This document shows, in pieces, positions 33,126-37,203 of a stretch of DNA of 37,356 nucleotides; within the stretch, counting starts at the first letter, position 1; each line of letters starts with the position of its first letter. The notes below the pieces were generated by a model, which was given only the letters and a program-made list of their open reading frames with translations, did no database searches and was not told the origin of the DNA. The position numbers and the translations under genes were made by a program. Where the stretch lies: NCBI GenBank assembly GCA_016179185.1, contig JACORW010000014.1:1-37356 (forward strand). Direction: 5' to 3'. This DNA comes from Gammaproteobacteria bacterium. Its GTDB lineage: Bacteria; Pseudomonadota; Gammaproteobacteria; Eutrophobiales; Eutrophobiaceae.

Positions 33126-33229
33126 AATGTTCTCCTTGAGCCTGGGTCCTTTACCGTCAACGGGTTGCGTGTAGTTTTTCACAAATGGGCCACGGACGCC
33201 ACGATTCGGCCGGCGCCTGTGCTTGCTGA

Positions 33230-33258
33230 TTGACACCACCGGGGGATTTATCTAACGT
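33230..33258 (+). promoter_or_regulatory. Predicted promoter of the riboswitch-metZ transcript
   Basis: A perfect -35 TTGACA (33230-33235), a 17-base spacer and a weak -10 TAACGT (33253-33258). Transcription would start around 33264-33266, right at the first base-paired arm of the SAM-II aptamer, which supports the call. It is oriented away from icd. Confidence 0.6.
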
Positions 33259-33262
33259 GTAT

Positions 33263-33318
33263 CCGGCGCCGATTTGATGATCAGCTTGCGGGCGCGTTAA
33301 AAATCCGGCTAAAGCGAG
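33263..33318 (+). promoter_or_regulatory. SAM-II riboswitch aptamer
   Basis: The sequence matches the SAM-II (metA-element) consensus as remembered from the family. There is a GC-rich 5' arm (GGCGCC, 33265-33270), then GATTTGA (33271-33277), CTTGCGG (33285-33291), the 3' arm GGCGC (33291-33295), GTTAAAAA and finally GCTAAAG (33308-33314). The first stem pairs 33266-33270 with 33291-33295. A pseudoknot pairing of AGCT (33283-33286) with GGCT (33307-33310) is possible but less certain. It lies upstream of metZ, a methionine-biosynthesis gene commonly controlled by this class. S-adenosylmethionine binding should reduce metZ expression through the overlapping terminator. Confidence 0.87.
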
Positions 33319-33320
33319 GC

Positions 33321-33355
33321 AACCTGCTTTAGCAAATGCTGACGCAGGTTTTTTT
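33321..33355 (+). terminator. Riboswitch-linked intrinsic terminator with antiterminator
   Basis: The arms AACCTGC (33321-33327) and GCAGGTT (33344-33350) enclose an inner AGC/GCT pair and are followed by a run of seven T (33349-33355), on the plus strand only. A competing hairpin pairs GCTAAAGC (33308-33315, the 3' end of the aptamer) with GCTTTAGC (33326-33333), eight perfect pairs. It shares bases with the terminator's left arm. The two folds exclude each other: ligand-bound aptamer frees the terminator, free aptamer allows the antiterminator. Confidence 0.85.
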
Positions 33356-33357
33356 AT

Positions 33358-33554
33358 GTACATGGATGTACTGTATACCGCGTGTGCAGGAGCACACACG
33401 CGGTAATGTACATGGACGGCAGAAAAATGCTCCTGCATTTTCTGCACTTCCGCCAGCAGAAAACCGCTCCCTGCGTTTTCTGCACTTCCGCCATCCATGG
33501 CGGTCGTCCATGGCGGTCGTACGGTATGCCGCGTGTGCAGGAGCACACACGCGG
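33358..33554. repeat. Dense block of palindromic and direct repeats
   Basis: Between the riboswitch terminator and metZ lies a run of hairpins. GTACAT-gg-ATGTAC is at 33358-33371. Two identical 26-base palindromic units (stem ACCGCGTGTG type) sit at 33378-33403 and 33529-33554. An imperfect tandem of about 37 bases (33419-33455 and 33456-33493) has both copies as hairpins with GCAGAAAA/TTTTCTGC stems. CCGCCAT-cc-ATGGCGG follows, then a perfect 13-base duplication (33494-33506, 33507-33519). The reading frames through it are open but have no ribosome site or protein resemblance. It makes up most of the long metZ leader. Confidence 0.85.
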
Positions 33555-33583
33555 CGACGCCCGCATGCCGGTTGGAGGTCAAT

Positions 33584-34771
33584 ATGACCGATGACAAACT
33601 GAGTCCGGACACGCTGGCGGTGCATGCCGGGCAGGTTCGCACACCGGAGCAGGAGAACAGCGAGGCGCTGTTCCTCAGTTCCAGTTTTGTGTTCGGCAGC
33701 GCCGCCGAGGCCGCCGCCCGCTTCGCCGGCGAATCCCCCGGCAACATCTATTCGCGCTTCACCAATCCGACCGTGCGCATGTTCGAGGCCCGGCTGGCGG
33801 CGCTGGAAGGGGGCGAACGCTGCATCGCCACGTCCTCCGGCATGAGCGCGATTCTGAGCCTGTGCATGGGATTGATGCGCGCCGGGGATCATCTGGTGTC
33901 GTCGCGCAGCATCTTCGGCACGACGATCAACCTGTTCAGCAACGTGCTGGCGCGTTGCGGTATCGAGACGACGTTCGTGCCGCAGACCGATTATCCGCAG
34001 TGGGAGGCGGCGATCCGCCCGAACACACGCCTGCTGTTCCTGGAAACGCCGTCGAATCCGCTGCTGGAGATAGCCGACATCCGCAGGCTGGCCGCCATCG
34101 CCCACGGGCGCGGATGCCTGCTCGCGGTGGACAATTGCCTCTGCACGCCGGCCCTGCAACAGCCCCTCGCGCTGGGCGCAGACATCGTCATTCATTCCGC
34201 GACGAAGTACCTGGACGGGCAGGGGCGCTGCATCGGCGGCGCAGTGGTTGGACCGGCGGCAATGCTGAACGAGGATATTTTTGCGTTCCTGCGCAATGCC
34301 GGTCCGTCCATGAGCCCATTCAATGCCTGGGTGTTTCTGAAGGGCCTGGAGACCCTGCGTTTGCGCATGTCCGCGCACTGCGGGACGGCCTACGCCCTTG
34401 CGCACTGGTTGCAGCAACAACCCGGCGTGCGCCGCACGCACTATCCGGGGCTGGAAAACCACCCCCAGCATGCCCTGGCGCGTTCCCAGCAATCGGCGTT
34501 CGGCGCCATCGTCAGTTTTGAGGTGGATGGGGGCCGCGCCGCGGCGTGGCGGCTGGTTGACGCCGTGCGCGTGTTTACCATCACGGCGAACCTCGGAGAT
34601 GCGAAGTCCACGATCACGCACCCGGCCACGACGACTCATCACCGGCTGACCGATGCCCAGCGCGCCGAGGCCGGGATTGGTGAGGCGCTCATCCGGCTGT
34701 CGGTGGGGCTCGAAGACGGCGGAGACCTGCGGCGGGATCTCGCGGCAGCGCTCTCCGCCATGGCCGGATGA
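33584..34771 (+). CDS. metZ: O-succinylhomoserine sulfhydrylase
   Basis: PLP enzyme of the Cys/Met metabolism family that makes homocysteine directly from O-succinylhomoserine and sulfide. 395 residues. Landmarks are YSRFTNPTVRMFE (phosphate-binding Tyr and Arg of the neighbouring subunit), SSGMSAI, DNCLCTPALQQP, the Schiff-base Lys208 in HSATKYLDGQGR and GDAKSTITHPATTTHHR. DNCLCTP and the N-terminus TLAVHAGQVRTPEQENSEAL fit MetZ better than MetB or MetC. TTGGAGG precedes the ATG at 33584. It is controlled by an upstream SAM-II riboswitch, with a repeat-filled leader of about 230 bases between terminator and start. Confidence 0.92.
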   Translation: MTDDKLSPDTLAVHAGQVRTPEQENSEALFLSSSFVFGSAAEAAARFAGESPGNIYSRFTNPTVRMFEARLAALEGGERCIATSSGMSAILSLCMGLMRAGDHLVSSRSIFGTTINLFSNVLARCGIETTFVPQTDYPQWEAAIRPNTRLLFLETPSNPLLEIADIRRLAAIAHGRGCLLAVDNCLCTPALQQPLALGADIVIHSATKYLDGQGRCIGGAVVGPAAMLNEDIFAFLRNAGPSMSPFNAWVFLKGLETLRLRMSAHCGTAYALAHWLQQQPGVRRTHYPGLENHPQHALARSQQSAFGAIVSFEVDGGRAAAWRLVDAVRVFTITANLGDAKSTITHPATTTHHRLTDAQRAEAGIGEALIRLSVGLEDGGDLRRDLAAALSAMAG

Positions 34772-34798
34772 GGGTGTTTTAGGCTTAAAATATTGCAG

Positions 34799-34836
34799 CG
34801 GCGCATTTTTTTATTGCAAAGCGCCGGATTTCTTTT
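34799..34836 (+). terminator. Weak hairpin after metZ
   Basis: CGGCGC (34799-34804) and GCGCCG (34821-34826) form a 6-bp stem with a 16-base A/T-rich loop, followed by atttctttt. It lies 28 bases after the metZ stop and may terminate its transcript, but the broken T-run makes the call uncertain. Confidence 0.35.
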
Positions 34837-35089
34837 ACTCTATGCGGCCCTTGGTGCGGGTGACGGGGGAGGTAGCGCCGCTCGTACTGCCACAGAATTC
34901 TAGACAGGTTGATGCAAAGGTCCAGCCGTGGAATTTTGCCTTTCGCATCCGCTTGTCAATCCAGCGGGCCGTGGGTGCCAGCCTTACCCGCCTTAGATGC
35001 TTTGTCGCGGGCCGTTCGATCGCCGTGCTGCATGTTATACCCTGCCTGCGCAGATCCGGATTTCAATTTGAGCCTTGAGGAGGCGAGCC
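34837..35089. other. Non-coding gap before the glyoxylate aminotransferase gene
   Basis: The whole space between metZ and the next gene is 318 bases. Apart from the weak hairpin at its left end I see no gene, tandem repeat or known riboswitch. Open frames here have no ribosome site and read as composition-driven sequence. A TATACC hexamer near 35036 could be a -10 box for the downstream pair, with no convincing -35. GAGGAGG at its end is the ribosome site of the next gene. Confidence 0.6.
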
Positions 35090-36271
35090 ATGCCAGGTCG
35101 TAACTTTCTGTTTATTCCGGGACCCACCAACGTGCCCCAGCGCGTTCGCAACGCCATGGCCATCGAGCAGGAGGACATGCGCGCAATGGACTTCCCGAAG
35201 CTCACGCTGCCGCTGTTCGAGGACGTAAAAAAGATCTTTCAGACCAGGACCGGCCGGGTATTCATCTTCCCGTCATCGGGCACCGGGGGCTGGGAGGCGG
35301 CCATCAGCAATACGCTGTCGCCCGGCGACAAGGTGCTGATGTCGCATTTCGGGCATTTCAGCTGGCTGTGGGTGGACATGTGCCAGCGCCATGCCCTGAA
35401 CGTCCAGGAGCTGGAGGTGCCATGGGGTGAGGGCGTTCCGGTGGAGAAGTACGCCGAGAATCTGAAGGCCGACAGGAACAGGGACATCAAGGCGGTATTT
35501 GTCTGCCAGAACGAGACCGCCACCGGCGTGACCAGCGACGTGGCCGCAGTGCGCCGGGCGCTCGACGCGGCCGGGCATCCCGCATTGCTGTTCGTTGACG
35601 GGGTCAGCTCCGTGGCCAGCATTGATTTCCGCATGGACGAGTGGGGCGTGGACGTGTGCGTCAGCGGTTCGCAGAAGGGATTCATGCTGCCGACCGGTCT
35701 CGGTATCGTCTGCGTCAGCCAGAAGGCGCTGGATGCGCGCAAGAGCGCGAAGCTGCATCGGGTCTTCTTTTCGTTCGATGACATGATCGCCGGCAACGAC
35801 AACGGCTTCTTCCCGTATACGCCGAACACCATTTACCTGCGCGGCCTGCGCGAGTCCGTGAACATGCTGCTGGAGGAGGGTCTGCCGAATGTGTTCGCCC
35901 GCCACCGGCGGCTGGCCACCGCGGTGCGCAAAGCGGTCGAGGCCTGGGGTCTGAAGCTGGTGGCGGCCGATCCGAAGTGGTACTCGGACACGGTCAGCGC
36001 CATCTATGTTCCCGAAGGATTCGACGGCAACGAGATGGTGCGGCACGCCTACAAGTTCTACAACATCGCCCTGTCCGTGAGCCTGGGCAAGATCGCCGGC
36101 AAGGCGTTCCGCATCGGGCACCTTGGCGACCTGAACGAACTCATGATCCTGACGCCAATCGCCGCCGCGGAGATGGCAATGAAGGACCTGGGCATCAAGG
36201 TGAAATTGGGCAGCGGTGTCGGCGCCGCGCAGGAATACCTGTGCAGCACGAAGGTGCAGGTGCGGGGCTGA
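35090..36271 (+). CDS. Serine-glyoxylate aminotransferase
   Basis: PLP class V aminotransferase of 393 residues that converts serine and glyoxylate to hydroxypyruvate and glycine, as in the serine cycle or in glyoxylate disposal. It shows FIPGPTNVPQRVRNAM at the N-terminus, SSGTGGWEAAISNTLSPGD, VDGVSSVASIDFRMDEWGVD and the Schiff-base Lys196 in SGSQKGFMLPTGL. The ATG at 35090, preceded by GAGGAGG, is chosen over one five codons upstream. Its stop overlaps the next start (TGATG), so it is translationally coupled to the malyl-CoA-lyase-type gene, a pairing typical of serine-cycle loci. Confidence 0.92.
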   Translation: MPGRNFLFIPGPTNVPQRVRNAMAIEQEDMRAMDFPKLTLPLFEDVKKIFQTRTGRVFIFPSSGTGGWEAAISNTLSPGDKVLMSHFGHFSWLWVDMCQRHALNVQELEVPWGEGVPVEKYAENLKADRNRDIKAVFVCQNETATGVTSDVAAVRRALDAAGHPALLFVDGVSSVASIDFRMDEWGVDVCVSGSQKGFMLPTGLGIVCVSQKALDARKSAKLHRVFFSFDDMIAGNDNGFFPYTPNTIYLRGLRESVNMLLEEGLPNVFARHRRLATAVRKAVEAWGLKLVAADPKWYSDTVSAIYVPEGFDGNEMVRHAYKFYNIALSVSLGKIAGKAFRIGHLGDLNELMILTPIAAAEMAMKDLGIKVKLGSGVGAAQEYLCSTKVQVRG

Positions 36272-37203
36272 TGAGCTTCACGCAATACCCCCCTGCCGCG
36301 CCGCGGTTGCAGCGCAGTGAACTGGCCGTGCCCGGTTCCAATCCGGGCATGTTCGAAAAGGCCGCGAATTCGGAGGCAGACTATGTCTTTCTGGACTGCG
36401 AGGATGCCGTCATCCCGGACGACAAGCCGCAGGCGCGCAAGAACATCATCCAGGCGCTGAATGACATCAACTGGCGCGGAAAGACCATGTCCGTTCGCAT
36501 TAATGGTCTCGACACACATTACATGTACCGCGACGTCGTGGACATCGTGGAGCAGGCCGGCGACAGGCTCGACACCCTCCTGATCCCGAAGGTCGGCACG
36601 CCGTCGGACGTGTACGTCGTGGACTGCCTGCTGACACAGATTGAAGTCGCGAAGGGGCTGAAGAAACGCATCGGCATCGAGTGCTTGATCGAGACCGCGC
36701 TGGGCGGAGCCAATGTCATGGCCATAGCCCAGTCCAGCAGGCGTCTCGAGGCGCTGCATTTCGGCGTCGCTGATTACGCCGCCAGCCTGCGCGCGCGAAC
36801 GGTGAATATCGGCGGCCTGAATCCGGACTATCCGGGCGACCAGTGGCATGCTGCGCTGGTGAACATGGTGACCGCCTGCCGAGCATTCGGGCTGCGCGCC
36901 ATTGATGGGCCATTCGGCGATTTCAGCGACCCCGATGCATTCAGGCTGGCGGCGCGCCGCGCCGCCGCGCTGGGGTACGAAGGCAAATGGGCCATCCATC
37001 CGAGCCAGATACCGCTGGCCAACGAGATCATGTCGCCGCCGGAAGCCGAGGTGACGCGGGCGCGGCGCGTGCTCGTGGCGCTGGAAGAAGCGGCGAAAGC
37101 GGGCAAGGGCGCGGCGCAGCTTGACGGCAAGATGATCGACGCCGCGTCCGAGCGCATGGCGCGCAACATCGTAAGGCAGGCCGAGCTGATCGCAGGCAAA
37201 TGA
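36271..37203 (+). CDS. Malyl-CoA lyase-type CoA-ester lyase
   Basis: 310-residue member of the HpcH/citrate-lyase-beta family, most like L-malyl-CoA/beta-methylmalyl-CoA lyases that split malyl-CoA into glyoxylate and acetyl-CoA. Visible features are SELAVPGSNPGMFEKAA at the N-terminus, the acidic LDCEDAVIPDDK, the RINGLDT arginine, the IECLIETALGGANV metal-site glutamate region, the AIDGPFGDFSD segment and GKWAIHPSQIP near the C-terminus. A citryl-CoA or methylmalyl-CoA activity is possible. Its start overlaps the aminotransferase stop. The coupled pair makes and uses glyoxylate; other serine-cycle genes, if present, would be outside the window. Confidence 0.88.
   Translation: MSFTQYPPAAPRLQRSELAVPGSNPGMFEKAANSEADYVFLDCEDAVIPDDKPQARKNIIQALNDINWRGKTMSVRINGLDTHYMYRDVVDIVEQAGDRLDTLLIPKVGTPSDVYVVDCLLTQIEVAKGLKKRIGIECLIETALGGANVMAIAQSSRRLEALHFGVADYAASLRARTVNIGGLNPDYPGDQWHAALVNMVTACRAFGLRAIDGPFGDFSDPDAFRLAARRAAALGYEGKWAIHPSQIPLANEIMSPPEAEVTRARRVLVALEEAAKAGKGAAQLDGKMIDAASERMARNIVRQAELIAGK

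Follow-up and report, generated by a model that had tools for sequence, protein, structure and literature searches.

A metZ leader with a SAM-II aptamer and predicted transcription attenuation in a gammaproteobacterium

Does the leader between icd and metZ in this gammaproteobacterial genome sense S-adenosylmethionine (SAM), and if so, does it act on transcription or on translation? The window, by which we mean the whole 37,356-nucleotide stretch of DNA that was analysed, places the leader between icd on the opposite strand (start near 33128, from an ATG and ribosome site chosen by eye) and a gene that the original prediction had named metZ. The product is indeed O-succinylhomoserine sulfhydrylase (NF006003, 669.8 bits, cut-off 522; TIGR01325, 569.9 bits, cut-off 510), with 80% identity to the MetZ of MGYT01000182.1 (Gammaproteobacteria bacterium RIFCSPLOWO2_02_FULL_61_13). 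From the features listed here, we conclude that the leader very probably senses SAM and ends transcription early when SAM is high.

33230-33235, + strand: -35 hexamer TTGACA (from sequence; TTGAC in relatives)
33253-33258, + strand: -10 hexamer TAACGT, 17 nt past the -35 (spacing conserved in relatives)
33266-33270, + strand: P1 5' arm GCGCC (pairing in 53 leaders)
33271-33277, + strand: SAM-II motif GATTTGA (sequence)
33281-33289, + strand: 5' strand of pseudoknot P2, TCAGCTTGC, with 33283 unpaired (leader alignment)
33285-33291, + strand: SAM-II motif CTTGCGG (sequence)
33291-33295, + strand: P1 3' arm GGCGC (pairing in 53 leaders)
33308-33317, + strand: 3' strand of pseudoknot P2, GCTAAAGCGA (sequence and leader alignment)
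33308-33319, + strand: antiterminator 5' arm, comprising GCTAAAGC (33308-33315), a one-base bulge and AGG (33317-33319) (fold)
33323-33333, + strand: antiterminator 3' arm, comprising CCT (33323-33325) and GCTTTAGC (33326-33333) and overlapping the terminator 5' arm (fold; conservation)
33321-33350, + strand: terminator hairpin AACCTGC-T-TTAGC-AAAT-GCTGA-C-GCAGGTT (fold, alignment)
33349-33355, + strand: U-tract of seven T, the first two of which can also pair in the stem (sequence)
33574-33579, + strand: metZ Shine-Dalgarno sequence GGAGGT (sequence)
33584-34771, + strand: metZ, O-succinylhomoserine sulfhydrylase, ATG at 33584 (NCBIfam)

Several lines of evidence assign the leader to the SAM-II class, as the original prediction had proposed. 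A cmscan of the whole window found RF00521 (SAM_alpha, SAM-II) at 33256-33329 on the + strand with 36.5 bits, just over the gathering score of 36 (E 7.9e-5), and this was the sole match in the window to exceed its own family's gathering score. On re-reading the sequence, the positions predicted for the motifs were exact to the base. P1 closes a loop that begins with GAUUU, as SAM-II requires, and P2 joins this loop to the GCUAAA strand through eight proposed pairs. Moreover, the downstream gene belongs to methionine/SAM biosynthesis. We also considered SAM-V or a different RNA family, but rejected these because a covariance-model scan of 33200-33600 gave nothing credible, with no other SAM class, SAM-V included, at E values up to 1.

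To examine conservation, we used leaders of relatives found by RF00521 in whole genomes, extracting 58 distinct leaders with a U-tract, 53 of which were aligned. P1 was paired in 100% of cells, with one pair changed on both sides, and P2 in 89%, its outer pair appearing as U-A, U-G or C-G with three both-side changes. The terminator was paired in 94% of cells, with an outer stem that is conserved with compensatory changes, and the antiterminator in 90%, or 99% if we omit the last pair, which is C-G in only 15 leaders; in slid controls, with partners moved by one to three columns, 21-52% of cells were paired. P1 and the terminator also appear when the alignment is folded to a consensus. Several alignment measures exceeded their shuffle controls only mildly, since the columns hardly vary, and we place no weight on these controls. 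In most relatives, metZ-like reading frames lie downstream of the leader.

The original prediction had noted a perfect -35 just ahead of the aptamer, and a promoter, TTGACA-17-TAACGT, is present. TTGAC lies mostly 34-48 nt upstream of the aptamer stem in relatives, and TAnnnT follows exactly 17 nt after it in 52 of the 61 relatives that have TTGAC (counted by hand). An automatic scan for consensus promoters and terminators found neither feature in the leader, because the -10 hexamer, a poor match to consensus, is too weak and a mismatch interrupts the terminator stem; manual inspection and comparison brought out both. With this promoter, transcription would start near 33265.

The arrangement of the downstream hairpins is what argues for transcription attenuation. 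The predicted terminator with seven T is present, as is the predicted 8-bp antiterminator (33308-33315 with 33326-33333), which is lengthened by three further pairs, AGG with CCT, past the one-base bulge. The antiterminator uses the 3' end of the aptamer, as had been claimed: the first eight bases of the P2 3' strand are its main 5' arm, and thus SAM binding and antitermination are mutually exclusive. Since 33326-33333 in turn lies within the 5' half of the terminator, the SAM-bound aptamer, the antiterminator and the terminator form a chain of exclusions. The leader therefore has the parts of an attenuator, namely an intrinsic terminator and an excluding antiterminator that shares aptamer bases. 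These parts are not readily found by chance. The terminator arm region folds with -13.9 kcal/mol compared to -5.6 +/- 2.0 in dinucleotide shuffles (1 of 1000 as low), an exact 8-nt complement of GCTAAAGC occurred within the next 45 nt in 1.4% of shuffles, and both the terminator fold and the complement are kept across many genera. Of these arguments against chance, conservation carries more weight than the shuffles.

Folding by length gave a consistent picture. In the unconstrained RNA, the antiterminator, AGG/CCU stack included, had a probability of 0.98-1.00 for transcripts ending at 33333-33346. When the P2 bases were blocked by hand, a fold imposed to mimic bound SAM, P1 was stable and the terminator reached 0.99-1.00 from 33348. 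For the full-length RNA, computed energies differ little between the fold with the terminator (-28.8 kcal/mol) and that with a forced antiterminator (-27.7 kcal/mol), and we therefore expect the choice between them to be kinetic. Among the 51 leaders with a recognised antiterminator 3' arm, all seven antiterminator pairs formed at the decision length in 50, and the terminator formed in the unconstrained full-length fold in 39. Thus, both folding and the 53 aligned relatives favor the transcriptional mode of the original prediction.

We propose the following mechanism for SAM binding and termination in the metZ leader. RNA synthesis would begin near 33265. If SAM is low, the emerging GCUUUAGC (33326-33333) would be paired by GCUAAAGC (33308-33315), such that the terminator 5' arm is tied up and polymerase continues into metZ. 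If SAM is high, 33308-33315 would be held in the SAM-bound P2 with the loop strand UCAGCUUGC, leaving 33321-33333 free to form the terminator with 33338-33350, and transcription would end in the U-tract near 33355, yielding an RNA of about 90 nt. We are confident, although on computational grounds, that the leader is a SAM-II riboswitch that turns metZ off in this manner.

A more elaborate version of the model is that Gammaproteobacteria have a distinct SAM-II platform in which both pseudoknot strands guard both terminator arms, with a few relatives that lost the terminator apparently re-using these strands for control at the ribosome site. Specifically, GCUAAAGC would take the terminator 5' arm, while the loop strand AGCUUGCG, which is able to pair with the terminator 3' arm in the forced full-length fold, can take the other. 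We consider this elaboration unlikely.

Is the antiterminator 3' arm conserved for its own sake, or only as part of the terminator? Covariation had to be rejected as proof of the antiterminator, since its pairs vary on one side only and the other arm is the invariant aptamer core. We compared which parts are kept in 72 distinct leaders. In 44, the antiterminator 3' arm and the terminator occur together with an inner terminator arm that can be recognised. The 3' arm (CUUUAG/CUUUGG) is kept in six leaders in which the inner terminator arm was not recognised and in eight with no clean U-tract after the stem (in two of these eight, L010 and L123, a single A is all that breaks the T run); eight leaders have a terminator without the 3' arm, and six have neither. 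Thus, conservation of the 3' arm does not depend solely on its place in the terminator: about a dozen leaders with an altered or missing terminator retain it, which supports, without proving, a separate role. The CUUUAG complement was absent from 11 leaders of mostly alphaproteobacterial MetZ loci, and this conserved antiterminator platform thus seems typical of gammaproteobacterial SAM-II.

We considered that the aptamer might instead have decayed and its terminator become constitutive, or that the leader might be a small RNA standing on its own, leaving metZ without SAM control. The RF00521 score, barely over the cut-off, and the long repeat-bearing stretch ahead of metZ would both fit such a reading. 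However, the window shows no change at any position that at least 90% of the aligned leaders conserve, its antiterminator arm is intact, and a genome of the same genus (G001, leader L013) retains every part. We regard this reading, in either form, as very improbable.

The stretch between terminator and gene has features of its own. The interval 33356-33570 is filled with palindromic interspersed repeats, including CCGCGTGTGCAGGAGCACACACGCGG twice, and parts of it have 51 matches in the genome; in other genera, hairpin repeats follow or replace the U-tract (L012, L013, L024, L044, L125, L126). The 228-nt repeat-bearing stretch from U-tract to gene could be an extra layer of control. A search of plasmid DNA gave only two short matches, within the repeat-free terminator-to-UTR part. 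Many relatives (L009, L010, L012, L015, L019, L020, L029, L123-L128) share another conserved block, close to CAGGCTGACTCTT, some tens of bases upstream of metZ; it is absent from the window.

Translational control, in which the bound aptamer masks the metZ ribosome site, is known for the compact metX SAM-II (PMC10907184), the metA riboswitch of S. meliloti is predicted to work in this way (PMC9373788), and the terminator has been lost in a few relatives (L015, L020, L029). In the window, however, the Shine-Dalgarno sequence lies 219 nt past the U-tract and 245 nt past the aptamer match, with a terminator and complementary antiterminator in between, and we think it highly unlikely that this leader masks its ribosome site. 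In L015 and L020, we noted by eye that CUCUUA complements both AAGAG of the aptamer strand and the metZ ribosome site, which suggests a switch to translational control in these two leaders. Three others (L014, L138, L147) have tandem SAM-II-like aptamers, an arrangement known already (PMC9481103); in L014, the first aptamer has a terminator and the second an apparent ribosome site.

The genome is gammaproteobacterial, as had been predicted, and computation supports this lineage. RF00521 occurs at E <= 0.001 in 45 of the 53 genomes of the order, and in 31 of the 33 good ones. Recent import of the same riboswitch from Alphaproteobacteria, a rival on origin rather than mechanism suggested by the horizontal transfer proposed for sporadic gammaproteobacterial cases (Barrick and Breaker 2007, PMC2258182), is highly unlikely, given this distribution and a platform unlike that of the 11 leaders, mostly alphaproteobacterial, that we inspected. 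Across an evenly drawn sample of the class, which follows the GTDB definition and may include Betaproteobacteria, RF00521 occurs in 118 of 369 genomes, but only 31 exceed the Rfam cut-off. When the entire leader was made into a covariance model, it matched 174 of the 369 genomes (128 of 272 genera), counts that include some training sequences and rest on rough E-values, with weak matches perhaps reflecting the aptamer alone. Thus, default annotation probably overlooks most gammaproteobacterial SAM-II riboswitches.

MetJ was not found in the 53 genomes of the order, although the E. coli control was positive, and we therefore rejected MetJ control of metZ (0 of 53). With no MetJ in the order, SAM-II is a likely SAM-responsive control of homocysteine synthesis there.

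Beyond metZ, a 141-codon frame that overlaps its end (34653-35078) has no NCBIfam or Pfam match and may not be a gene. At 35075-36268 is a class-V aminotransferase close to BhcA, the aspartate-glyoxylate aminotransferase (622 bits, cut-off 650), followed at about 36313-37203 by an HpcH/CitE-type lyase. The two, which lie near icd and aceK, may together handle glyoxylate.

The original prediction held lineage and mode to be noteworthy, but neither is unusual. Corbino et al. 2005 (PMC1273637) listed SAM-II with Coxiella and putative terminators, a 2007 description made SAM-II the class most often linked to terminators in Alpha- and Betaproteobacteria, and a Pelagibacter study (2009, PMC2704228) described it as commonest in Alpha-, Beta- and Gammaproteobacteria. 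In a survey of about 200 proteobacterial genomes, by contrast, SAM-II was reported from Rhizobiales and Rhodobacterales alone (Leyn et al. 2014, PMC4239095). Neither the lineage nor the mode is therefore new, as gammaproteobacterial SAM-II was reported in 2005-2009 and terminator-linked SAM-II described in 2007. What we add is modest: the sub-cut-off copies, the MetJ-less order and the gammaproteobacterial antiterminator complement, which may have been described before, as the literature consulted included few subscription-journal papers.

Compared to known systems, the leader shares P1, P2, the conserved core, a nearby -35/-10 and a pre-gene terminator with Rfam RF00521 (Corbino et al. 2005, PMC1273637), although its score is close to the cut-off and its outer P2 is short (UC/GA), whereas the alpha forms inspected have about four G+C-rich pairs. 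It shares aptamer class and core with the compact metX SAM-II (2QWY), which hides a ribosome site without a terminator (PMC10907184), while the window leader has one. The Betaproteobacteria metXZ element (Leyn et al. 2014, PMC4239095) is likewise a metX/metZ leader with a proposed terminator/antiterminator, but it was described as an element distinct from SAM-II that contains six conserved regions, with no ligand assigned. A near parallel is the metZ SAM-II of Sinorhizobium meliloti (RZ RNA), studied together with that of metA by Scheuer et al. 2022 (PMC9373788). Aptamer class, gene and predicted SAM-induced terminator are common to both, but S. meliloti is an Alphaproteobacterium and the host of the window is gammaproteobacterial; a short RNA is a further likeness, as the RZ RNA is about 100 nt on Northern blots and more abundant in high-SAM conditions (PMC9373788), and the window leader is predicted to yield about 90 nt. 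Among these systems, the window leader is a well-made but ordinary SAM-II, of a class common in this bacterial branch.
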